A DNA stretch of 64,000 nucleotides from Scedosporium boydii. Lineage: Eukaryota > Ascomycota > Sordariomycetes > Microascales > Microascaceae. How positions within the stretch are numbered: position 1 is the first letter of the stretch; each line of letters begins with the position of its first letter. The notes under the pieces are model-generated. The model worked only from the letters and a program-made list of their open reading frames with translations. It had not been told where the DNA came from and made no database searches. The stretch lies in assembly GCA_002221725.1 (NCBI GenBank), contig NJFT01000013.1:62001-126000 (forward strand). The letters run 5' to 3'. Position numbers and translations under genes: made by a program. Shown piece after piece: positions 5,724 to 18,143 of the stretch.

Positions 5724-8083
5724 CTACTCACTTATCCTGCCAGAGAAAAGTAAATCTTGTTTCCCCGAAGGAGGGCAGGCCGGATCTTCAGGGAAAGCCG
5801 ACACGGCATCCTTGAATCCATCCAAAATTGCTTTGTCGTTGCGCTTGTAAGGGGACTTAGAATATGCAGTGCAGCATTTGGAACGAGCACCTGTCTTGCA
5901 TCCAGCTTCCTCCATGCCCACACGGATCCTAGACGATGGACACCCGCTCCTACAGGACTGGGGTCCGCTAGGTCCGTCGCCGAGGTGATCGAACCAATCA
6001 CACTCGCCATAATGCCAGTCCTCGTCTTGTTCACAGCAAAAGCTCCTTTGGCCAGTATGGCATTTGGAGCCGCCACTCCCGTCTCCCGTAGCGGCCACGA
6101 GGGTTCCTTCGTCCCCACGGCACTGGTCGTCGCATTGGGGGAAGTTTCCCCAAGCACACTGAGACTGTAATTTCATACTGTTTAGTGACTGGCGGTGGGA
6201 TCCGACACCCGCAACTGTGGCACAGCAGCCTGCTTGGTAACTGCTTGTCTTCAAGCAGTACATGTTGTTGCCGCCGATCTCGATCATATCCGCCGGGCAT
6301 TTCCCATCGCAGTGGCCGTTGTTATACCCGTACCAGCCGCACTGGGGAATTGGGTTCCCAGGAGGACAACAAAAGAGGTGGGCCCCGTGGCCTTCACAGC
6401 CTTGTTCATCGAGCATGATCTCGCCGGCTCGTGCCCCGTCATCCTTTCTCGGGGCAGTAGCCCAGCCAGTGGGACAAGCTATTGCATGCCAGCGGCGAGG
6501 CCCATGAGGTTAGCTAATAAAACAAAGGGACAGGATTCGACAGGTAGGAGGAGAGCTTGAACGAGGAAGAGAGAAGGGGGCTGGCTACCTTGTCCACAAT
6601 TCATCCATTTACACTGGGGCTCGGCGTTAAAGAGTGAAGGCTTCTCATCACCGTCCACATCAGCAAGAAGGATAAAATCGGTAGCCCCTTGGGCGGCAGC
6701 ATGGTGCAGAGACTCGGAGAATTTGGCCTCCTTAGTGTCGTGGGAAATAGCCCACACCATGACGCCTCCCAGGCACTTGTCAGCCGCATACCTTATTTTC
6801 ATGCCCAGCGTCTCTTCATCATCGTACGCTATCCAGTTATCGCCCTTCCATATGACGATCTTGACAGCTGCCGAGCCATCCAGGACTGGAGTGAAATTAA
6901 AGACATTGATGCCCATCTCAATTTCCGAGTTTAACATGACTCCAATCTCGTGGCTACATGGCCAAGCAGGGGTTCCAGAGCCATACCTGCAGCCGGGCGA
7001 CGTGTAACTTGGGCTCTCCGCCACGAAGCTGCGGCCGTAGAAACTCATGCCAAGGTTAAGCTTCTGAGGATCAAGACCGCTGCGCCAGAGAAGGTCTAGT
7101 GCTTGATCGATCTCAGTCAAGTTTGTGTGGGCACTGAGATAAGGACCTGCCAACTTGTTGGGGATGTCCCAAACGCCGTGGAGATCATACGACTTGCTGG
7201 AGTTTTCGTAGAGATGTGAGTATACAAGGTCGTTTTGACATATCTCTCTGCGGTTATTGGGGGGTAAGCTGCTCGCAGCTTAGATGATGCAGGAAATGGC
7301 ACGAACATATTAAACCAGTCTACAATGGGCTCTATCCTCTTAAGATCAAAGTGTGGGAGATACCCTGAGAACAGCCATGGGCTGATAAGCAAATGCGCTC
7401 GAGGATGGAAAAAGCATCACAGAGCTCAAGTCTATACTCACAGGTGCAGGCAGGTATGGTGATGCTCAAACCACCCCTGATGGGAGAAAACGCCAGTGCG
7501 TCTTTGAGTCTCGCCAGGAGGAGCGGGTAATTGGAATAGTCCTCGGGGCTACCACCTCGATCTTCAGCCCCAGGGTACTCCCAGTCGAGATCGACACGTC
7601 GAAGTCATGGGTAGCAATAAAGCGAATGACAGATAAGATAAACTTATTCTGGTTGTCTACGGTGGAAGCAATCTTTGGAAAAACGTGCTGCGTCGGACCA
7701 GGATTGCTGAAGTTCCACCCACCGATTGCGATGAAAATCTTCACTCCAGGGTCCATCTTTTTGCGGTAGATCAACCTCTGATACATGGCGACATCTCCAT
7801 CGGAGTAAGGCCGAACTTCGAGCGTCTCGGGGTCAATAGTGGCAAACGCGAAGTTGATATGAGTGTATACCCCCACGGGGATCTGCTCGGGGTAGAAGGC
7901 ATGGCATCGGCGGCCTGTCGCCCACCCCTCGTAGTATCCAACGACCCGCTCGAAGGCGGTTCGCTTGGCTGAGCAGTCTGGAGACTTGTTGGAACACAGG
8001 CCCGATGCGCTGCAATCTTCGGCGTGAGCGAGAGCTACCAGGAATGAGAAGATCAGTGTCAATAGTTTCATAGAGAGCGACAT
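5724..8083 (-). pseudogene. Secreted GH18 chitinase, frameshifted in the catalytic motif
   Basis: This is an endochitinase-like glycoside hydrolase family 18 protein. Segments on the minus strand are 8083-7442, 7364-7307, 7196-6589 and 6478-5724, separated by GT-AG introns of 77, 110 and 110 nt. The start encodes a signal peptide ending near LVALAHA. Segment one carries VVGYYEGW, the THINFAFA strand and FIAIGGW. The family signature DGxDxDxE should follow IATHDFD, but one base is missing near 7597. The frame therefore shifts just before the WEYPG segment and meets a stop at 7466. All downstream exons are otherwise clean: YDLHG, GMSFYGRSF, AYDDEETL, MVWAISHDT, then a long Cys-rich C-terminal region (about 250 residues, many paired Cys). 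Length and C-terminus resemble the subgroup C ('killer-toxin-like') fungal chitinases, but the usual N-terminal LysM/CBM18 modules are reduced to a short Cys stretch. The 3' end may also be shortened. It is either a recent pseudogene or an assembly indel. Confidence 0.8.
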
Positions 8084-9019
8084 CCCAAAGCCCCCAACGG
8101 ATTGAAGCTAGAAGTGACAAACGGAGGCACAAGAAGAGTGGCTAGTTTGTCCAAGAGAGTGGTCGTTGGAATCTGATTGGAGGAGAAGGGGCAACAGGCA
8201 GAGAGTGAGTGAGAGAGAAAAGCAGCAGGAGAGACGAGAGAGAGGAGAACAGCATACGGAGAAGAAGACGACAATACACGGTGGGGGGAAGAGAGCCTTG
8301 GCGAACAATAACAGGTCCTGTGAATATGTCCGAAATATAAGATTGAAGCTCATGTACCGAGGAAAGGCGCCAAAAGCCGAGTTTGGCATTTAACTGCATA
8401 TCACGTAAATTAGAATAAAATGCATGGGCATCCCATTCATCACCAACTTCATTCCCTACCAAAACAACCCCTAAAACACTCACATTTTCAAGGATTTCTA
8501 TACCTCGAACTTCTGGCCTATGTAGAACTGGATATAGATTGTCAAAGCAGGGTTTGCATGATGGCTGAAGTCATGGAAGTGTGGACGAAAGCAGCTACTA
8601 CTGGATACTGTCATCTTTTTTCCAATATACGGCGTTTGCATTTAAAGTATGAGCCTGACTTTTAGCCCCTGTCCTCGACCATCGACCTCTTTCGTCCGCA
8701 TCCTGCAAGCGCATCGCGTCGATACACATGTCAATCATCGCAGCACTGAGGCTTTCTTCACTCAACCCATCGCTCCCGTGCTAGGCGACTCCATGAGTTG
8801 ATATCCGTCCGTTCATCGGGTTCATTCTCCACTAGCACTCTCCTCTCCCTTGCCTAGGCTCTCCTCCAGCTACCTTCCTTTGTGGCCCCTTCCCCCCAAT
8901 GTCTAGAAACCCGTCACTCCTTTGCGTTGCTCGATATTGTCCGTCCCTCCCCTCCCCTCCTGGATACTCTCCTTGGCTCCCAACCCGAAGTCCTTCAATG
9001 CTTGTCCTGCTTTCTCAGT
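8084..9019. promoter_or_regulatory. Shared divergent promoter region, chitinase and LysM genes
   Basis: About 0.94 kb separates the start codons of the minus-strand chitinase and the plus-strand LysM gene, so the two are head to head. The region contains a purine-rich AG tract (about 8195-8260, GAGAGA-like) and a CT-rich leader just before the LysM start. I see no gene. Divergent pairing of a subgroup C chitinase with a LysM gene is a recurrent fungal arrangement and suggests co-regulation. No specific operator could be identified. Confidence 0.45.
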
Positions 9020-10491
9020 ATGACCAGTCGTTCAGTTAGCGTTTCGGCCTTCGTGGCATTCTTGTGGTCTACTTTGGCAGTCGTCAGGGCCGCATCTGAT
9101 CATGGCCACGGCTTCCACATCTACACTTCGGGTGATCTCGACGGGATCATTCAACCCCTTTCGGGCGGCTGCAAAACAGCCCTCACACAACGCATCGATT
9201 GCCACTCTTACGTTGAAACCTTCGGGCGGCTGCGGTATTATGGGTCGCTCGATAATAGTACCTTGACTAGCCTCGTTTGTGATATTCGCTGTGGTGAAAG
9301 TCTGCAGAGTTGGGTTAATAACGTTGAAGCAGAGTGCGGCCCACCAGCTGCCACCTTCGACGACGGGTCGCTTTTGACACTTATAGGCCGCAGGATGCTA
9401 TCCGCCTATCGCCAAACATGCCTGAAAGATGTGGACTCAGGCCGAAATTGTAATGGTGAGTTAGCTGACCGCTATAGACTATAGACATAGTCATAGATAA
9501 CTTCTATCCTGGACCGGCGTCTTGCTGACACACTGCGCCTCCTGGGGTTACTGCCGTTTTAGACTTAATCGACGGGTTTACTGTTGTCACAGATATAAAC
9601 CTGATGCCCACAGAGGAGATCTGCTCATATTGCTACATCCAGCGCAATGCGATGATGCAAAATGACAGATACTCCATCTACAGTGACTTCTATAAGCAGA
9701 GGCTCGAGTACATCTACTCCCGCTGCGAGGTTACCGGTGATACCGACGTGAAAGAGCCTCCAATCCCACCCACTCAGACGGAAGAGCTCTGCTTCTCCGA
9801 TAAAAAGTATATCACGCAAGAGGGCGACACTTGCGATTCAATCGCGCTCGCCCGCTCTGTTTCCTCCGCAGCCTTGTACATGGGCAACCAGCCTAAGTTT
9901 GCGGACTGCGATGACATCGTTCCCGGACTAGAGCTATGCATTCCGCTAAGTTGTGATTTGGTCTACGTCGTCCAAGCCAAAGATATCTATTTCGGAATTG
10001 AACGCAACCATAGAGCTGAGGGTGTCAAACGCGGCGATATAACCCGCTTTAACCCTTGGGTTAACCCATTCTGCACCAACCTTGTTTCGTGGAGCGATAA
10101 CGTATACGGCCACGTCATTTGCCTGTCCCCTCAGGCGGGCTTCGCAAACGCAACAGTGCCTGGAGGCGGCGGCGTTAATTGGGGCGAGTATACTCCAAGA
10201 CCCCAGGCTGGCTATAGCTGGGGGACGGAACCTACTCCCGATGGTGCGGCTCTCGCGCCGGGGACATCGACTTGGTGTAAGTTGTGGTATGTCGCACGGG
10301 AAGGCGACATCTGTCCCTTGCTAGCATTATTAGGACCAAAGACCATCGACATTCAGCTTCTTGTCAACCCGTCCCTAGGCACTGAATACTCACAGTGTGA
10401 TGGCAACATTGTTCCGGGCTTGACATATTGCGTGCTGCCAACTGTCGGGGCGGGACGATACAAAATCCCAGAGGAGCCGGAACCCTCTTAA
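9020..10491 (+). CDS. Secreted LysM-domain protein
   Basis: Exons are 9020-9455 and 9593-10491; the 137-nt intron has a GTGAGT donor and CACAG acceptor. ATG 9020 is the first Met in frame and starts a signal peptide (MTSRSVSVSAFVAFLWSTLA..VRA). The product is about 444 aa. The N-terminal half is a Cys-containing domain found in fungal LysM proteins that accompany subgroup C chitinases. LysM-like units follow: one beginning KKYITQEGDTCDSIA and ending IVPGLELCIP, a degenerate one beginning LVYVVQAKD, and one beginning KLWYVAREGDICPLL and ending VPGLTYCVLP. LysM domains bind chitin or other N-acetylglucosamine polymers. In fungi they occur in wall-protecting and host-masking effectors and alongside chitinases. 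There is no transmembrane segment or GPI signal at the C-terminus, which ends in a Pro/Glu-rich tail. The gene looks intact, unlike its divergent chitinase neighbour. Confidence 0.85.
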
Positions 10492-10850: not shown

Positions 10851-11714
10851 TTAAGGCTCTTTGGCAGTCTCTCTCTTCCGCTTGAAAGCAGCGGCATAAA
10901 GTGCATTATCCGCTTGGGCGCAAACATTGACCCACCAGCGAACCTTGCCAAATTTCGTCATGTCCGAATCCTCGGCAAGAATGCCTATCCAACGCGCTAT
11001 GCAATGGCCCTGCGGGCGACCAAACCATAGATCGACAAGATTAACGAGATGAATACGGCACCACGGTCGAAACGATGGGTGGTCCGGTTCCATCCAGCCG
11101 AGTCTAACGGGCGGTTCTCCAGCCTCTTCATCAAGGGTAGTCTCCCTATCTACCAGCCAGACCCAGGCCTTGCCCGTGATTAAAAGTAGATCGCGTTCTT
11201 CTGCTGCTGTCTGCGGGCTGACCGGAGGGACGTCTGGGAGCGCCTCCAGGCTGACAAGAGACCTCTCGTCAATAACAAGACAGTGGTCGTTCCGCACATA
11301 CAGGTCGTCAACCTCCAGGGCATTCTCGTCAACCCAGTCCAGGAATGCAACTCCAACCGGTGTAAAGTTTTCATCCCCTTCTTCGACGTTAAGGCCAGCG
11401 CGGACTTGGTCTCGATCGGGGTAGTCTTCGATCACCTCAAGGTAGAACCGGCGCGCAAGCTCGTCAGAAGGATGAGGCTCCCCTGAGATAGGTAGCTGCT
11501 CTGAGTGATCCTTCACTTCACCCTCACTGAATCCGGGATTGGGCCGAGATCGGGCACTGTTGATTGAGAGGACATTGTAGTATCTCGGGTAAAATGACCA
11601 AGGGTGTGAAGAATGTTTGGGCTTCCCTAACATAAACTGGCGGCGAGAATGAAGTTGAGAGATTGTATGAGAGTGGGTGAGAGCTTGCTTCTCGATGGGC
11701 ACTTTGCGGATCAA
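10851..11714 (-). CDS. Hypothetical protein, 287 aa
   Basis: A single open frame whose composition (acidic, Trp-rich, regular codon use) looks like a real protein, but I do not recognise a family. It has no signal peptide or membrane segment. The C-terminal third contains several Trp residues (WVWLVDRE, LGWMEPDHP, VRWWVNVC) typical of a compact soluble domain and ends in a basic tail (AAFKRKRETAKEP). The first Met is at 11714; Met28 (near 11633) is an alternative start and would remove a low-complexity leader. It lies between the chitinase/LysM pair and the NLR cluster, on the same strand as the NLR. I infer no function. Confidence 0.5.
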   Translation of the reverse strand: MIRKVPIEKQALTHSHTISQLHSRRQFMLGKPKHSSHPWSFYPRYYNVLSINSARSRPNPGFSEGEVKDHSEQLPISGEPHPSDELARRFYLEVIEDYPDRDQVRAGLNVEEGDENFTPVGVAFLDWVDENALEVDDLYVRNDHCLVIDERSLVSLEALPDVPPVSPQTAAEERDLLLITGKAWVWLVDRETTLDEEAGEPPVRLGWMEPDHPSFRPWCRIHLVNLVDLWFGRPQGHCIARWIGILAEDSDMTKFGKVRWWVNVCAQADNALYAAAFKRKRETAKEP

Positions 11715-12300
11715 GGACCTGGATCAAATTTTGAGCGTTGATGGGAATGACAGCCAGTTGAGGCCCCTCGACGATTTGGCGTAGTGCTCGAGCGCTCACT
11801 TGCCCCCGCTCCGATAACCCCTAAAATTACCAGTCTGTCACAGAACAAAGCTTCGGGTTACCCACGGCTGTGTGATTTTACTCCAGTTCATATCAACGTT
11901 CCAACATCAAGTGAGAGTACACTTATACTAGACTCGTTTTCCTCTCTCTTTTCTCCCCTACCTCTAGCCAAGAGTAGGAAAACGAGAGGTAAATCAAGGC
12001 CTAGGTTCTGATACTCGCCAACTGGGGACATGGTTTTTGCCAGCCGCCAGACCAGATTCTGCGACTTATTCGCACTTCCATCTACGTTCGTACCTCGTTC
12101 CTCTTTTTGTATTTGTCAATACTGGCCTCACTCTGATCTCATCTTCGACTTTATATATAGAAGATTTTAGCCATTGCAACTCTATATCAAAGAGTGCTAA
12201 GATATATATTACCGATTACTCTATATTTACACATCCTCTCACGCCTGTCCTATGTAATACTTTTGTAGAAAGTATAATAATATCCTTAACAGCACGTTTA
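11715..12300. other. AT-rich spacer downstream of the NLR
   Basis: No gene seen. The sequence becomes AT-rich from about 12130, with strings such as TATATATAGAAG and AAGATATATATTACC, and merges into decayed ankyrin-coding repeats. The base composition contrasts with neighbouring genes and fits RIP-type decay of former repeat units. Confidence 0.5.
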
Positions 12301-12567
12301 GAACAACCTCATACCCATTCCGAGACGCCGCCATAAACAGTATCCCGCCATCAAAAAACATCTCTCGCCTCATCCATAGCAGTATCTAGCCACCATTATT
12401 GTCTTACACATCGACGCCACCCTCCCCAAGCAGCAACTTGACACTAGCCTTTCGCCCATTCTCAACCACCTCTCTTAGTAGCATCTAACCACCTTTATTT
12501 TATCTTTCTCAAATAGTAGATAAACAATAGCCTCATACCCATTCCTAGCTCCCCATATTAGTAATAT
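12301..12567 (-). pseudogene. Decayed ankyrin repeats beyond the NLR stop codon
   Basis: Read on the minus strand, the sequence just past the NLR stop still encodes ankyrin-like text: LLIWGARNGYEAIVYLL, then LREVVENGRKASVKLLL, then VDV-stop-DNNGG-stop. It is interrupted by stop codons and a frame change. The copy starting near 12523 is in exact 99-nt register with the intact copies at 12622, 12721 and 12820. Compared with those copies, many differences are C-to-T or G-to-A on the plus strand (for example TATCAGCGGTGTCTGACC has become TATTAGTAATATCTAACG). This indicates that the ankyrin array was once longer and has been eroded, probably by RIP. Confidence 0.75.
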
Positions 12568-15207
12568 CTAACGAGAATGACCATCTTCTATCCTCCTATC
12601 AGCTCGTTTCTCAAGCAGCTTAACAATAGCCTCATGCCCATTCCCAGCTGCCCGCCTCAGTGGTGTCCTACCATATCCATCTTTTCCATTAACATCAGCT
12701 CCCTTCTCAAGTAGCAGCTTAACAATAGCCTCATGCCCATGTGTGGCTGCCCATATCAGCGGTGTCTGACCACTATCATCTTTTCCATTAGCATCAGCTC
12801 CCTTCTCAAGTAGCAGCTTAACAATAGCCTCATGCCCATTCCCAGCTGCCCGCCTCAGCGGCGTCCTACCATATCCATCTCTTCCATCAATATCGACCTT
12901 GCCTGTCTCAAGCAGTAGCTTAATAATTTCGTCATGGCCCTTCTCCGCAGCAGAGAGGAATAGCCTTTTAATAATATCATCCGCTGAGCCAACCAGGGTT
13001 CCTTTCGCGAGCAGTGGCTTAAGCACCTCTTTGCGTTCGTTACAGACAGCATAAGATAATGGAGTCCCTCCAATTTTGTCCTCCGCATCCACCCGAGCCC
13101 CTGCTCTAATTAGAAGCTTGACGACGGCGACGTTCCCATTCCAAGCAGCATACGACAACGGCGTTCGACCATCCTTGCTTTGGGCGTCGACATCGGCTCC
13201 AGTCCCAAACAATAGCCTGGGGTCTTCCAGACCAACACTAGCATCCTTGACCAGTAGTTTGACAACTCCGTCAAAGCCATTTCCCGCGGCCCAGGATAGC
13301 GCCGACCTCTGATATGTTGTATCCAGAGAATCGAAGTCGATATCATTTGCCTTACACAAACGCTTCACTGCTGTTCTCAGTCCGAAATAGGATGCAATCA
13401 TGAGGGTAGTGAACCCCTCGGGAAAGTCTGCGCTTGTACCTGTCCAATAGATTCTGAACCAAGTCCAGCAACGCTTTGAGTCTACGTCACAGAGTCCCAG
13501 TATTGATGGCGTCATTGCGTTTTGCCTTCCAGCTTGCATCTCACGGACGTGAAGAGCCCAATGCTTGGCGGAGTAATCGAGAAAAGTGTGACCCTCGACG
13601 TATTGGGATAACGATGCGCTTTCACCGAGGGGATGAGTCTCGAATTCTTGGAGGAGTAGGTACCAGACACAAATCTCGGCAAGAATACGATGAGATTCTC
13701 GCGTCCATAGTGCGTATTTCCATTTGAGATCTCCGGAAATATATTTGGGGAATTTCCTTTTCTTATTCCGAACCAGGAATTCCTTAGCTGTTTGGTGAAG
13801 TAAGTAGATCCTTGAGTCGATGATCGTCACGAAGAGGCCGCAGATGTCTCGTATGTCCTGAGGGAAACGATCTTCGGGTCTGAGATCGAGGTCATCATGG
13901 GACCGATCGCGCTCTCGAAGAGATAATGCCAAGTTCATCTCTCCCAGGGTCAGAGGGCGGGCTGCTGCTACAGTGATATGCAGTATCTTTTTAGCCTCTT
14001 CGGGATCGGAACTTTTAGAGAGTATCCTGTCGTATGCCTCGTCAACTGATTTAGGGAGTTGAGAAGTAGCTTCATCTATGCCAGTTTTACTGCTCTTGAT
14101 GTTTCTCTCAATCAAGTCTAGCGTCAGATGCACCCACAAGTACGTCCTGTTGGGAACACGCATAAGTTCTCCCAAGAGACGGCCTTCCTCCTTTTGTTTA
14201 AGCTTCAGTCGTGCTCCAATATGAGAAACCCTGGCTCTGATGTATATATCGATCTCCTCAGATATCTTTTTCACTTCCTCATCGTTTTCCCCACTCAAGT
14301 GAATTACTGGCAACCCTGACCCTGGGATCATTAAGGGCTCAAAGTCCAGGCTAATATCACCATAGGGTCGGCTTGTAAGGAGAAACTTCAAGTTAAAACT
14401 TCTCTTAGTCTCATACAGTTTGTGTAGAGCTTGGTGGAGCAGCGATCTCCCTCGACTTTCGCATTCGTCAATCGCATCGAGAAGGCAGACGATTTCGCCA
14501 GAGGTCCTGTCTTCTGCAGCATTGATGAGAGCTTTCCAAAGGTCGCTGAATGAGCTGGTGAATTCTTCACCGACGGTATCGAACTGGTCGAGGATCGCAT
14601 CAGAGAGTAGGATGCGCTTGTGCATGAAAAGTTGATAGAGGATACAGCACAGGGCACTAGTCACACTTCTCTGGTCCTCAAAGTCGTCCTTGAAGAAGAA
14701 GTAGCACACGGTTCTGGATTCTGTAGTAGGCAAGACAGAATCAACCAGATGCTTTGCCAAAACCGACTTTCCGCATCCAGGATCTGCAGAAACCCAGAGC
14801 ATTGTCGACGATGTGCTTTCTTGCCAGTCTCGAAAGAGCTTGTGGGACACGAACCATTGGCAAGTCCCCTGGACCCGGGGTGGGTTTCGATTTTTTCGAT
14901 CTTCGTATGGTGATACGTTGAGGCATTTCAGAATCCTTTTTCTCCCCTCTTCCCGGCGGTCTTCCTGGATGCCAATATTCACGGTGCCGATGGTAGCACC
15001 AGAGAACTGGTTTCCACTGCCAGTGTTGTTGTTCTGAATACCATCATAGTTATTAAAGAGTTGGCTGCTGGAAGATGGCCCGGAGGTAAAGTGTCTCGTC
15101 TCGGCATAGGGTCGCGGATTGGGTACAGTAGCGCTTCGCAGTGGATAGACTGCAGCAGTTCGGGGCCGCTGGCGCAAAGTCTCGGTCGCGGAAGCGGATC
15201 CCGGCAT
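12568..15207 (-). CDS. NLR: amyloid motif - NACHT - ankyrin repeats
   Basis: Uninterrupted 879-aa STAND/NOD-like receptor. Residues 1-50 are Ser/Arg-rich. Residues 51-79 are a Gly/Asn-rich motif with core QNNNTGSGNQFSGATIG, shared with the SesA and SesB genes in this cluster. The NACHT NTPase follows: Walker A GCGKS (144-148), Walker B VCLLDAIDEC (240-249), then LLTSRPYGD. A winged-helix-like region comes next, and ankyrin repeats fill about 600-870. The last three repeat units are almost identical at DNA level with a 99-nt period. In fungal incompatibility systems, ligand sensing by the repeats oligomerises the NACHT and exposes the N-terminal motif, which then templates amyloid folding in effector proteins. 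Here the motif sits where NLRs of other classes carry a whole death domain. The array ends abruptly (the last unit lacks one codon and degenerates) and decayed units continue past the stop, so the receptor may be shorter than its ancestor. It is head to head with sesA across 919 bp. The family call is secure; the ligand is unknown. Confidence 0.92.
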   Translation of the reverse strand: MPGSASATETLRQRPRTAAVYPLRSATVPNPRPYAETRHFTSGPSSSSQLFNNYDGIQNNNTGSGNQFSGATIGTVNIGIQEDRREEGRKRILKCLNVSPYEDRKNRNPPRVQGTCQWFVSHKLFRDWQESTSSTMLWVSADPGCGKSVLAKHLVDSVLPTTESRTVCYFFFKDDFEDQRSVTSALCCILYQLFMHKRILLSDAILDQFDTVGEEFTSSFSDLWKALINAAEDRTSGEIVCLLDAIDECESRGRSLLHQALHKLYETKRSFNLKFLLTSRPYGDISLDFEPLMIPGSGLPVIHLSGENDEEVKKISEEIDIYIRARVSHIGARLKLKQKEEGRLLGELMRVPNRTYLWVHLTLDLIERNIKSSKTGIDEATSQLPKSVDEAYDRILSKSSDPEEAKKILHITVAAARPLTLGEMNLALSLRERDRSHDDLDLRPEDRFPQDIRDICGLFVTIIDSRIYLLHQTAKEFLVRNKKRKFPKYISGDLKWKYALWTRESHRILAEICVWYLLLQEFETHPLGESASLSQYVEGHTFLDYSAKHWALHVREMQAGRQNAMTPSILGLCDVDSKRCWTWFRIYWTGTSADFPEGFTTLMIASYFGLRTAVKRLCKANDIDFDSLDTTYQRSALSWAAGNGFDGVVKLLVKDASVGLEDPRLLFGTGADVDAQSKDGRTPLSYAAWNGNVAVVKLLIRAGARVDAEDKIGGTPLSYAVCNERKEVLKPLLAKGTLVGSADDIIKRLFLSAAEKGHDEIIKLLLETGKVDIDGRDGYGRTPLRRAAGNGHEAIVKLLLEKGADANGKDDSGQTPLIWAATHGHEAIVKLLLEKGADVNGKDGYGRTPLRRAAGNGHEAIVKLLEKRADRRIEDGHSR
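12622..12918. repeat. Three 99-bp ankyrin-coding tandem repeats
   Basis: Near-identical units begin at 12622, 12721 and 12820 with AACAATAGCC and encode the 33-residue unit ending GHEAIVKLLLEKGAD. High internal identity points to recent duplication or concerted evolution, as seen in NLRs that diversify their ligand-binding repeats. The first unit has lost one codon, and a degenerate fourth unit in the same register starts at 12523. Confidence 0.85.
14971..15057 (-). other. Amyloid motif segment of the NLR (residues 51-79)
   Basis: Encodes FNNYDGIQ followed by NNNTGSGNQFSGATIG and TVNIG. The core NNNTGSGNQF is identical in SesA and SesB, and the flanking aromatic/glycine pattern (F-N-x-x-x-G-x-Q, then GA-x-x-G-x-V) is conserved in all three. 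The repeated short Asn/Gly units resemble the pseudo-repeats of a beta-solenoid fold. The amyloid role is inferred from the known sigma/PNT-type cluster architecture. Confidence 0.8.
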
Positions 15208-16126
15208 TGTCTGCTCAGCGTGGATAATCGGAGTTGCGCCTGATGAATTTCAGCTTGAGCACGGCGGGCAGGTTCGGGGGCTTTTACCAACACTGGTGAC
15301 AAGGTTGATACTATTCCAGCGAAATGACACAAGTATGGGGGGTGCTGAACCCTCTTCGTCTCTGTTGGGAGGAGGACGAGTATGGGACGAGATGCGAAGT
15401 CTCCAGCAAGAACTGGCGGGCAGCGAAATAAACCAGTGGGATAATATTCCTTCGGCGGTTATCGCGCGGGGCTGGAAGCCAGCACATTGAGGAGGGTGTC
15501 AGCTGGGCGTTACCAAGGGAGCCTTGCAGCTAATATCAGACGGGAACATAGAGGGCACAAATGGAACTCCCGTGGTCACGAAAATAAAAGACAAGTATTA
15601 CGAGAACAACACGTAAAAGTTCGTTCGGAGCCTGGCGGTATTAAGTGTAGACCACTGCAGAGACTCTTGCGATGTCGAAACCGATCCAGCCCCGCTCGCC
15701 ACGACTGGGTTGTTTATAAGTGCAGCCCGCTGAGCAGACACAACATGGGTGTCAGTCTGTTGCAGGCAGCGTTGATTGGTAGCCTGGCCTGGCCCGCATA
15801 TTCCTTCGTGCGTTTCTTTCTGGGTAGACCATTCGGCGCTGGCGATTCGCGCCACAGCTGCACCCAATATCACATTCAAGGAGAGTTTAGAGTAATAATA
15901 GCTACTCGGACACGTAGCCGGATGTGGCCCAACCCGTTCTCGTGATAATATTGGTTAAGGGAAGTTGTGCTGATCTTAGTGGTGGTTTGGCCAGCGAAGG
16001 GAAGGGAACGCAGATCTCTTATTCAAAGCATCCCCCAGCGGCCGTTCCTCACTCTTTCGAGATTCAACCAGCATCTGGCCGCCGTTGCAAGAGAAGGTGT
16101 GTTTTCTAGACAGCGTCAGAGGTAGG
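15208..16126. promoter_or_regulatory. Divergent promoter between NLR and sesA
   Basis: 919 bp lie between the start codons of the minus-strand NLR and plus-strand sesA. A frame of about 150 codons (15487-15945) has no plausible protein features, and I treat the region as a shared promoter. Head-to-head placement would allow the receptor and an effector to be expressed together. No defined binding site was recognised. Confidence 0.45.
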
Positions 16127-16738
16127 ATGACAGTCTCCGACATCAACGACTGGATCTCCGGCACGATCGACATTCTCAAGATCACAACGAAAGCCTACAA
16201 TACTATCAAGGACGATGAACGCCTCCCGGAAACGTTCCATGAAGCGGGTCGAGGGCTAGATCTTGTCGAAGCAGCACTCCATACCGCCCATGAACAACAA
16301 GACGGAGATCTCCAACGCGCCGTGAGCTCGATTAAGGCCTGCAATACAAAAGCAAAGATGTCCCAGGGCATATTCGAGGACGTGGCTCAAGCACCAGAGG
16401 CTTTGAGGTTCGAGCGTTATAAAGCGGCCGTGCGACGAGAGGGCGAAGAAAGCAAGGTGGAAGTCTTGGTGGAGGGGATGATGAAGGACGTGTGTGATCT
16501 GGCCGGGGACGGCGCGGTCGGAGCAGCAATGAAAGATCAATTCAAGGGATTGCGTGATGCGATTGACAAGTTGTCAGCGATGGAACCGTCCGTGCCGAAT
16601 GAGCATGGGGGCGGCTCTTACTTTAATAGTGGCTCTGGCAACCAATTCATCGCCCGCGGGGGTACTCAAAACAACAATACAGGGAGTGGCAACCAATTCC
16701 CTGGGGCTAATTTCACTGGGTCTGTGTCTTTTGGTTAG
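16127..16738 (+). CDS. sesA: SesA-domain effector with C-terminal amyloid motif
   Basis: Intronless, 203 aa. ATG 16127 is the first Met; the frame upstream has only non-ATG codons. Residues 5-158 match the fungal SesA/NACHT N-terminal domain: a helical bundle beginning ISGTIDILKITTKAYNTI, with the LPETFHEAGRGLDLVEAAL helix, FERYKAAVR, EVLVEGMMKDV and the closing helix LRDAIDKLSAMEPSVP. Residues 164-203 are the Gly/Asn motif, here with two visible units: YFNSGSGNQF, then TQNNNTGSGNQF followed by FTGSVSFG at the extreme C-terminus. This domain order (helical effector plus C-terminal motif) mirrors HET-S/SesA-type executioners whose motif is converted to amyloid by a partner NLR. It is convergent with sesB, 223 bp away. 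The assignment by domain is strong; membrane or death activity is inferred. Confidence 0.9.
   Translation: MTVSDINDWISGTIDILKITTKAYNTIKDDERLPETFHEAGRGLDLVEAALHTAHEQQDGDLQRAVSSIKACNTKAKMSQGIFEDVAQAPEALRFERYKAAVRREGEESKVEVLVEGMMKDVCDLAGDGAVGAAMKDQFKGLRDAIDKLSAMEPSVPNEHGGGSYFNSGSGNQFIARGGTQNNNTGSGNQFPGANFTGSVSFG
16616..16735 (+). other. Amyloid motif segment of SesA (residues 164-203)
   Basis: Two successive units, SGSGNQF and TGSGNQF, are separated by IARGGTQNNN. The DNA from about 16659 (GGTACTCAAAACAACAATAC) matches the sesB motif DNA in inverted orientation at roughly 52 of 59 positions by eye, forming an inverted repeat across the sesA/sesB junction. Confidence 0.8.
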
Positions 16739-16961
16739 AACGGTTCTTGCTCCATTATCATGCGCTTCAGTTTACTTGATGTATTTCTTTACGAAGTAAA
16801 CAAAACACTGTCGGGGAAGCGACCGGTGTGAATCGCTTGTTTACACAAGGAGTAGCAGCGAACGAGACATATGATCGCTGGCGAGTCGGTCCTCGGCTCT
16901 AGTTTTCCTTCAATACTACGATGAAATATCTAACAAAAGCACAAAAGCCCAGTCCTGCTGC

Positions 16962-18143
16962 CTAAGGCGGACTCTTGCCGAAGTACACATTTCCAGTGAA
17001 AGTTGCCCCCGAGAATTGGTTACCACTGCCTGTATTGTTGTTTTGAGTGCCCCCAAAACAGTTGAATTGGGGCACAAGATCGTGGTTGTTAGAGAGCGGG
17101 CTGACTGGTTTGTCGACCCGTGCTCCTCCTAGATGAGATGGTGTAGCCTGACTGGCGGTCGAATCCCTGATTTGTGATGTCCATCTGATCAGCTCGCCAA
17201 GCAACCGTTTGAATCCGTTATCTTCCGCGGAGCTAAACCTGACCATATCTCTATGGTTGGCGTGGATGCTGAATGAGCTATAACCCTCGAGAGTGGCTGA
17301 TTCCTTAGACACGACTTCCCCAACCACGGGCAGAGGCAGTTCTTCAAAGAAGCATGTCACCTCAAAAGGCCGGCCGGCTTCTCGCAGTTCCCGTACCATC
17401 GACCAAAACCCCGTTTGAATAGACTCTAGGAGCTGGTTATCCGTCTCTAAAATCTCTAACAGTGGCCTGTTTGTAGATATTATAAGACCAAGAGCCGAAG
17501 CCGGTATCTTAGCCCAGTTGGCCATCCAGGACCCCTTATGAGGAGTTCCCATGAACACGATGCCTTTGGTGCAATTGAATACGTCTCGAAGATGAACCTC
17601 AGGGTTGTTTCGCGAGAGCAGGATGGCCTCCTTGCAGACGAGGCCACCTAGGCTGTGTGCGACGAAGATGAGAGGACGGGATGATGCATCCACGGACGCC
17701 CTGTCCATCGTCAAGTCGTTTAGAAAGTTCGCCGCGTGGTTTACCAGCCGATTTAATGATGCAACCGAGGTTCGTACTCCGTATGCGTCGTACCCATAAG
17801 TGAGCACGCGAGCGGTGCTAAGCCTCGGCGGGAGTAGCTTCTTTGGCCAGGGGGTGGACTGCCCATAGGCGGTCCAGGCGCTATCCCGACCACCTGTCAG
17901 GCCGTGGACAAAACATATATCAACCGTGGCATCCGGAGGGTCGTGCAGTGCTTTAATACCGTCGGGGAAGAGGTCCGGCGGAGGGCGGCCCGGAGACCTC
18001 AGTGGGTACTCTGTCTCGGATTGTGATTGCAGATTCGGTAGGGCAGGGTGGCTGTCGCTTATTCCTCCCGGTTGATCGGCTCCCGGCGTCGTCTCCCGCC
18101 ACCTCCCGAAAAACCGCAAGATAGACCCGGATTTCTTCATCAT
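16962..18143 (-). CDS. sesB: SesB-type alpha/beta hydrolase with C-terminal amyloid motif
   Basis: Intronless, 393 aa. The N-terminal 70 residues are Pro/Ser-rich. An alpha/beta-hydrolase (lipase/esterase, DUF676-like) fold follows: strand and oxyanion region VDICFVHGLTGG (73-84), nucleophile elbow AHSLGG with Ser164, the MGTPHKGS segment, and a probable catalytic His in SIHANHRDM (His294 or His297). Residues 359-389 are the amyloid motif: FNCFGGTQ, NNNTGSGNQFSGATFTG, NVYFG. In Nectria haematococca, sesB is described as a lipase-like gene beside sesA and het-eN in a prion-like sigma cluster. This gene has the same make-up and neighbours. The hydrolase would be recruited or activated when the NLR seeds motif polymerisation. 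Substrate and toxicity are not visible. The gene appears intact. Confidence 0.9.
   Translation of the reverse strand: MMKKSGSILRFFGRWRETTPGADQPGGISDSHPALPNLQSQSETEYPLRSPGRPPPDLFPDGIKALHDPPDATVDICFVHGLTGGRDSAWTAYGQSTPWPKKLLPPRLSTARVLTYGYDAYGVRTSVASLNRLVNHAANFLNDLTMDRASVDASSRPLIFVAHSLGGLVCKEAILLSRNNPEVHLRDVFNCTKGIVFMGTPHKGSWMANWAKIPASALGLIISTNRPLLEILETDNQLLESIQTGFWSMVRELREAGRPFEVTCFFEELPLPVVGEVVSKESATLEGYSSFSIHANHRDMVRFSSAEDNGFKRLLGELIRWTSQIRDSTASQATPSHLGGARVDKPVSPLSNNHDLVPQFNCFGGTQNNNTGSGNQFSGATFTGNVYFGKSPP
16977..17069 (-). other. Amyloid motif segment of SesB (residues 359-389)
   Basis: Encodes QFNCFGG, TQNNNTGSGNQF and SGATFTGNVYFG. The core NNNTGSGNQF is identical to that in the NLR and SesA; SGAT is shared with the NLR and FTG with SesA. 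Confidence 0.8.

Follow-up and report, generated by a model that had tools for sequence, protein, structure and literature searches.

A probable sigma-type sesA, sesB and NLR gene cluster in Scedosporium boydii and a second type of sigma motif elsewhere in its genome

Do the three neighbouring genes of Scedosporium boydii that carry one short Asn/Gly motif form an amyloid signalling cluster of the known sesA / sesB / het-eN (sigma) class, and would such a cluster work as a switch? The window, meaning the whole stretch of DNA analysed in this study (64,000 nucleotides of contig NJFT01000013.1, positions 62,001 to 126,000), holds within 5.6 kb three single-frame genes for an NLR, a SesA-domain protein and a SesB-type hydrolase (Table 1), of which the NLR and SesA genes are divergent and 919 bp apart and the SesA and SesB genes convergent and 223 bp apart. 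A sequence-only reading of this DNA had proposed a sigma-type cluster, and the predicted domains agree with that proposal: the Pfam sigma model is found in all three proteins, accompanied by a SesA domain, a hydrolase domain and an NPHP3_N-ankyrin architecture. On the strength of three PF17106 matches together with PF17107, the alpha/beta hydrolase and NPHP3_N-Ank, we consider it likely that the cluster belongs to the known class and works as an amyloid-templating switch.

Table 1. Features of the cluster (window coordinates) and related sequences on other contigs of the home genome (contig:coordinates)
Feature	Location	Strand	Details
NLR receptor: sigma motif, NPHP3_N/NACHT-type NTPase, winged helix, ankyrin repeats	12568..15207	-	879 aa, single frame
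NLR sigma motif, residues 48-79 of 879	14971..15066	-	PF17106 36.0 bits (cut-off 27.6); read as B-A part
NPHP3_N NTPase core, residues 114-280	14368..14868	-	PF24883 139.5 bits
Putative ankyrin-repeat sensor region	12568..13419 (start approximate)	-	Ank_2 185.1 bits; start from alignment with M. ibericus NLR
Tandem array inside ankyrin region	12614-12927	-	99-bp unit, 3.1 copies, 82% matches
Decayed ankyrin-like remnants past NLR stop codon	12301..12567	-	three-frame translation, broken frames
Predicted SesA effector, helical SesA domain (residues 10-125) and C-terminal sigma motif	16127..16738	+	203 aa; PF17107 113.2 bits
SesA sigma motif, residues 164-203 of 203	16616..16735	+	PF17106 53.8 bits; read as A-B-A, fullest of three copies
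Predicted SesB effector, alpha/beta hydrolase and C-terminal sigma motif	16962..18143	-	393 aa; Abhydrolase_6 29.3 bits
SesB sigma motif, residues 359-389 of 393	16977..17069	-	PF17106 50.6 bits
Second sigma motif type, ankyrin NLR	C161:67973-68089		intact frame; genome search
Second sigma motif type, two SesA genes	C48:1806-3773		genome search
SesB-like domains in NPHP3_N frame	C20:95820-97220; C312:17026-18414; C3:365005-366423		genome search
SesB-like paralogues 5' of NPHP3_N	C319:31773-33395; C152:59062-60697		genome search

Each of the three motif copies passes the Pfam gathering score of the NACHT_sigma model on its own, which is the outcome of the search against amyloid motif families that had been proposed as a check. 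With the Pfam limit set at E 1, where the HMMER filters remove most matches above E 0.1, no PP or HET-s model matched the three proteins; besides PF17106, the motif region drew only Pentapeptide_3 in SesB, which stayed under its cut-off (E 0.33). The core NNNTGSGNQF is, as claimed, letter-for-letter identical in the NLR, SesA and SesB, and the Pfam match positions confirm its placement, N-terminal in the NLR and C-terminal in both effectors. The flank described as GA-x-x-G-x-V fits the NLR, but SesA and SesB read GA-x-x-x-G-x-V, a difference of one residue between receptor and effectors to the right of the core. In terms of the published sigma submotifs A (GxGxQFNxx) and B (GGTQNINT) (Daskalov 2012, PMC3321046), we would read the motif of SesA as A-B-A, that of SesB as a worn A followed by B-A, and that of the NLR as B-A only. 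When the home genome (42.9 Mb, 442 contigs) was searched, with only the best candidates being scored, the SesB motif gave three matches with E of 10 or less, and each of them falls within the cluster (1.3e-12, 3.2e-7 and 1.4e-4). Under the same limit the Pfam sigma model gave nine matches. Five of these are above cut-off: the three sites of the window cluster on contig C13, thereby recovered a second time, and a single site each on C48 and C161.

The receptor shows a Walker A-like GCGKS and a Walker B-like LLDAIDE in its NTPase core (read by eye), and the PF05729 NACHT model stays below cut-off in the Pfam scan (20.8 versus 26.7 bits). A scan with NCBIfam models gave only sub-cut-off ankyrin matches in the NLR and no match in SesA or SesB. 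The gene limits of the sequence-only reading agree overall with ours, except that the NLR frame stops at 12568 and leaves 12301-12567 outside; the frame-broken ankyrin-like pieces seen there by three-frame translation are a newly described feature. The RIP indices over 12301-12568 are 0.96 (TpA/ApT) and 1.23 ((CpA+TpG)/(ApC+GpT)), values that point in different directions for the ankyrin tail when set against the thresholds for RIP. Because decayed ankyrin repeats border its 3' end, the NLR may be a shortened or truncated allele, a point that counts against the sigma-cluster explanation. It is thus possible, though in our judgement improbable, that the cluster is of the sigma class by descent while its receptor does not work, the shortened ankyrins binding nothing and the effectors being either relics or a pair that propagates by itself; apart from the remnants past the stop codon, this would fit the longer NLR of Monosporascus ibericus (1076 aa, with 13 PF00023 stretches versus six here) and decay elsewhere in the genome, where C48 carries a sigma NLR with stops in its motif and the SesB pieces on C161 are decayed and cover residues 59-237 only. 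However, a single frame still holds an intact NTPase core, an intact sigma motif and six intact ankyrin stretches, and repeat number varies naturally in fungal NLRs (PMC4986451).

The SesA domain scores far above its cut-off of 26.3 bits, and the predicted structure of the protein is helical (mean pLDDT 79.1), its motif being modelled as unstructured (pLDDT under 50 at residues 160-192) and the remainder well; PDB matches of the model do not tell MLKL apart from other helical bundles. The hydrolase domain of SesB lies closer to its cut-off (also 26.3 bits) and contains a nucleophile-elbow-like AHSLGG with Ser164, in columns that are conserved in an alignment of 35 hand-picked sequences, the window SesB included, while its predicted structure is poor (mean pLDDT 58.3). 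Profile searches of the PDB yielded no convincing match, with a best E of 0.016 in one run and none at E 0.01 in another.

Seeding followed by cell death is a plausible mechanism at this locus, and we infer that the receptor senses a ligand and oligomerises, that amyloid templating follows, and that the effectors then act and the cell dies. The receptor would be kept inactive until its ankyrin repeats bind something, whereupon it would oligomerise through the NTPase domain and gather its N-terminal sigma segments, which could then fold into an amyloid nucleus able to template the sigma tails of both effectors. Once converted, these would be unleashed: SesA, with a helical domain presumed to attack membranes like HeLo/MLKL domains, and SesB, a presumed lipase or esterase, so that the cell would die or growth would stop, as in non-self recognition. 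The shared motif might instead be a static scaffold on which the lipase and the helical protein assemble, with no amyloid templating, as the unstructured modelling of the SesA motif could suggest; nevertheless, low pLDDT in a single chain is expected where folding occurs only upon polymerisation, the motif agrees with the published sigma class in both position and composition, Daskalov 2012 (PMC3321046) mentions unpublished fibrils formed by the motif peptide of HET-eN, and we regard such a scaffold as very improbable.

The sigma-cluster explanation is further supported by the triad of M. ibericus, the linkage of SesA with SesB in other fungi, the covariation of their motifs and the sharing of core codons by the window SesA and SesB, as well as by a contrast with fused, or probably fused, SesB domains within the home genome. 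Among the 37 SesA relatives found at E up to 1e-3, 36 carry both SesA and sigma models, and of the 834 SesB relatives at E up to 1e-20 the sigma model is present in 71 of the best 120, including the top 37; the entry named SesB (Q6PX79) is 65% identical to the window SesB over 90% of the query. The NLR relatives are far more numerous (2,693), and among the 120 matches listed PF17106 was called in six and not in the other 114, which counts against the sigma-cluster explanation. Five of the six sigma-bearing relatives in this list, whose sources include Fusarium, Aspergillus and Cladorrhinum, also have ankyrin models; because PF17106 and ankyrin models are combined elsewhere, a sigma-NPHP3_N-ankyrin receptor is not new.

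Co-occurrence across genomes, which had been named as something that would support linkage, is indeed found. In M. ibericus, consecutive locus tags encode an NLR with ankyrins (DL764_008235), a SesA (DL764_008236) and a SesB (DL764_008237), with identities to the window proteins of 53% over 903 columns, 62% and 80%, respectively. Two features of this NLR count against the explanation: its motif is worn and receives no PF17106 call, and it lacks the roughly 140 residues that separate the NTPase part from the ankyrins in the window NLR. In addition, at least 9 of the 37 SesA relatives match a listed SesB relative in the length of the longest contig, equal length being a proxy for the same contig and the count a lower bound because the SesB side comprises the best 120 of 834; consecutive locus tags agree for three of these pairs (DL764, GIQ15 and DL771). 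The remaining 28 relatives match no listed SesB contig, and 13 of the 37 sit on contigs under 6,000 bases.

Motif covariation was assessed in 8 of the 10 linked pairs (the window plus nine), two having been dropped for a partial SesB with a truncated tail (P0008/P0045) and a lost SesA tail (P0037/P0095). Over 29 motif columns, the mean SesA-SesB identity was 0.737 within loci versus 0.649 between loci, and the within-locus value was reached in 2 of 40,320 permutations (2 of 5,040 without the closest relative), statistics that take no account of phylogeny among the eight loci; a first run on 50 columns including the linker also gave 2 of 40,320. On the motif columns, the own pair was more alike than the average comparison with SesA motifs from elsewhere in 6 of 8 loci, and than that with SesB motifs from elsewhere in 5 of 8. 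Once the linker columns were included, SesA-SesA similarity between loci (0.604) was higher than SesA-SesB similarity within loci (0.532), and the nearest foreign SesA was closer than the own SesB in 8 of 8 loci, both of which count against the explanation. Locus-wise covariation therefore backs the sigma-cluster reading in a supportive role only, since phylogeny among the loci was not removed. SesA and SesB have 9 of 11 core codons in common, where codon usage in four long frames of the window predicts 5.1. Recent exchange would fit this excess, as would a common origin not long ago. The NLR has 5 and 6 of 11 in common with the effectors, about the chance level, and this counts against. A chance resemblance between low-complexity Asn/Gly segments can practically be dismissed, for although the motif is rich in N, G and Q, the three separate matches over the Pfam cut-off, the three home-genome matches of the SesB query, the conservation in relatives and the locus-wise covariation all tell against it.

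The home genome also contains a second motif type, new in this study, which is carried by the NLR on C161 and the two SesA proteins on C48, on contigs other than that of the window. Smith-Waterman scores between motifs are 86-124 within the C13 triad, 110-141 between the C161 NLR and the C48 SesA pair, and 50-88 between C13 and the C161/C48 group, ranges that overlap slightly (86 within C13 versus 88 for C13 SesA against the first C48 SesA, no significance having been computed). The C161 motif lies about 26 kb from the nearer contig end and the C48 genes only 1.8-3.8 kb from theirs; the first C48 SesA is spread over two frames, with either an intron or a break between them, and the second scores below both Pfam cut-offs (24.8 and 20.4 bits). 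A tentative and somewhat doubtful possibility is that the genome has at least two sigma channels, the second being split in trans between the C161 NLR and the C48 SesAs and rewired after complementary loss of local partners, SesB beside the C161 NLR and an NLR beside the C48 SesAs, with C13 insulated. A sigma protein away from any NLR gene has already been mentioned (Daskalov 2012, PMC3321046), and 17 sigma motifs have been reported in Fusarium oxysporum Fo5176 (PMC12261475). As sigma is among the least tested of the fungal amyloid signalling motifs, a genome in which a triad with intact motifs and domains coexists with another motif type offers a ready cross-seeding matrix. Two divergent SesA-domain genes on C86 (C86:138218-140622; L024 4219-4815 and 5922-6623) carry a third, weaker motif variant below cut-off, with a score of 94 between the two.

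SesB-like sequences account for 58 match rows in the home genome, two of which belong to the window cluster. Five of the other 56 were compared for their position relative to NPHP3_N, using flanking sequence for C319 and C152 and coordinates for C20, C312 and C3; coordinates were also compared for C161. On C20 (1643 aa), C312 (1610 aa) and C3 (1030 aa), a SesB-like domain and NPHP3_N share one open frame, and the two best SesB paralogues, on C319 (65%) and C152 (59%, with one stop inside the match), lie immediately 5' of an NPHP3_N domain with the same orientation. These SesB-like domains appear to be, or probably are, SesB receptors in cis, and the sigma-model search of the home genome gave no sigma match at any of the five loci. 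The sigma motif is thus seen with a separate effector gene and not where the effector is fused, or probably fused, a pattern that would be expected if the motif replaces covalent fusion and that lends supporting evidence. The NPHP3_N repertoire is large, with 152 match rows in the home genome (the best 150 of 197 candidates being scored), and the genome search shows a sigma motif ahead of NPHP3_N at just three of its loci, on C13, on C161 and in the C48 gene that is decayed.

Compared to published systems, neither the receptor type nor the two-effector layout is new. The sequence-only reading had taken the Nectria receptor for a WD-repeat protein and the window cluster for a variant with a different sensor; the first claim is contradicted by the text of Daskalov 2012 (PMC3321046), where HET-eN displays ankyrin repeats, and the second falls with it, so the idea of a new sensor was dropped. 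The words ankyrin and het-eN are not found in the main text of Graziani 2004 (PMC516043), and the statement on ankyrin repeats is therefore taken from Daskalov 2012 only. Likewise, two effectors for one receptor, which had been singled out as of interest, have already been published, both for sigma and for the Chaetomium globosum PP cluster (PMC5485727). The sesA - sesB - het-eN cluster of Nectria haematococca / Fusarium has the same three gene types, motif placement and NACHT-ankyrin receptor (PMC3321046), whereas the window NLR frame includes the motif without a 5' intron (compare PMC3321046). The M. ibericus triad is alike in gene content but differs in its longer ankyrin array, worn NLR motif and missing middle stretch. 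HELLP - SBP - PNT1 of C. globosum also pairs one NLR with two effectors, one of them SesB-like (PMC5485727), but has a PP motif and a TPR receptor (PMC5485727, PMC7889193), and in het-S / nwd2 of Podospora anserina an N-terminal NLR motif likewise templates a C-terminal effector motif (PMC3321046), but with the HET-s motif, one effector and WD repeats (PMC5485727, PMC3321046). More broadly, the literature (PMC3321046, PMC9815663, PMC5485727, PMC4986451, PMC7889193, PMC12261475, PMC12881547, PMC12258605, PMC516043) describes ses-linked receptors as differing in repeat type and motifs as grouping by cluster, and a 2021 review calls the evidence for the sigma motif carrying the infectious element 'yet indirect' (PMC7889193).

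Among the neighbouring frames of the window, a 290-aa frame close to the 3' side of the NLR (10851-11723, minus strand) has no Pfam match at E 0.01, and 9529-10491 and 5724-6509 have none at 1e-5. In the stretches 5724-8107 (minus strand) and 8858-10491 (plus strand), a GH18 chitinase is split over the frames 6479-7279 and 7466-8107, and the frames beside it look secreted and LysM-like by eye.
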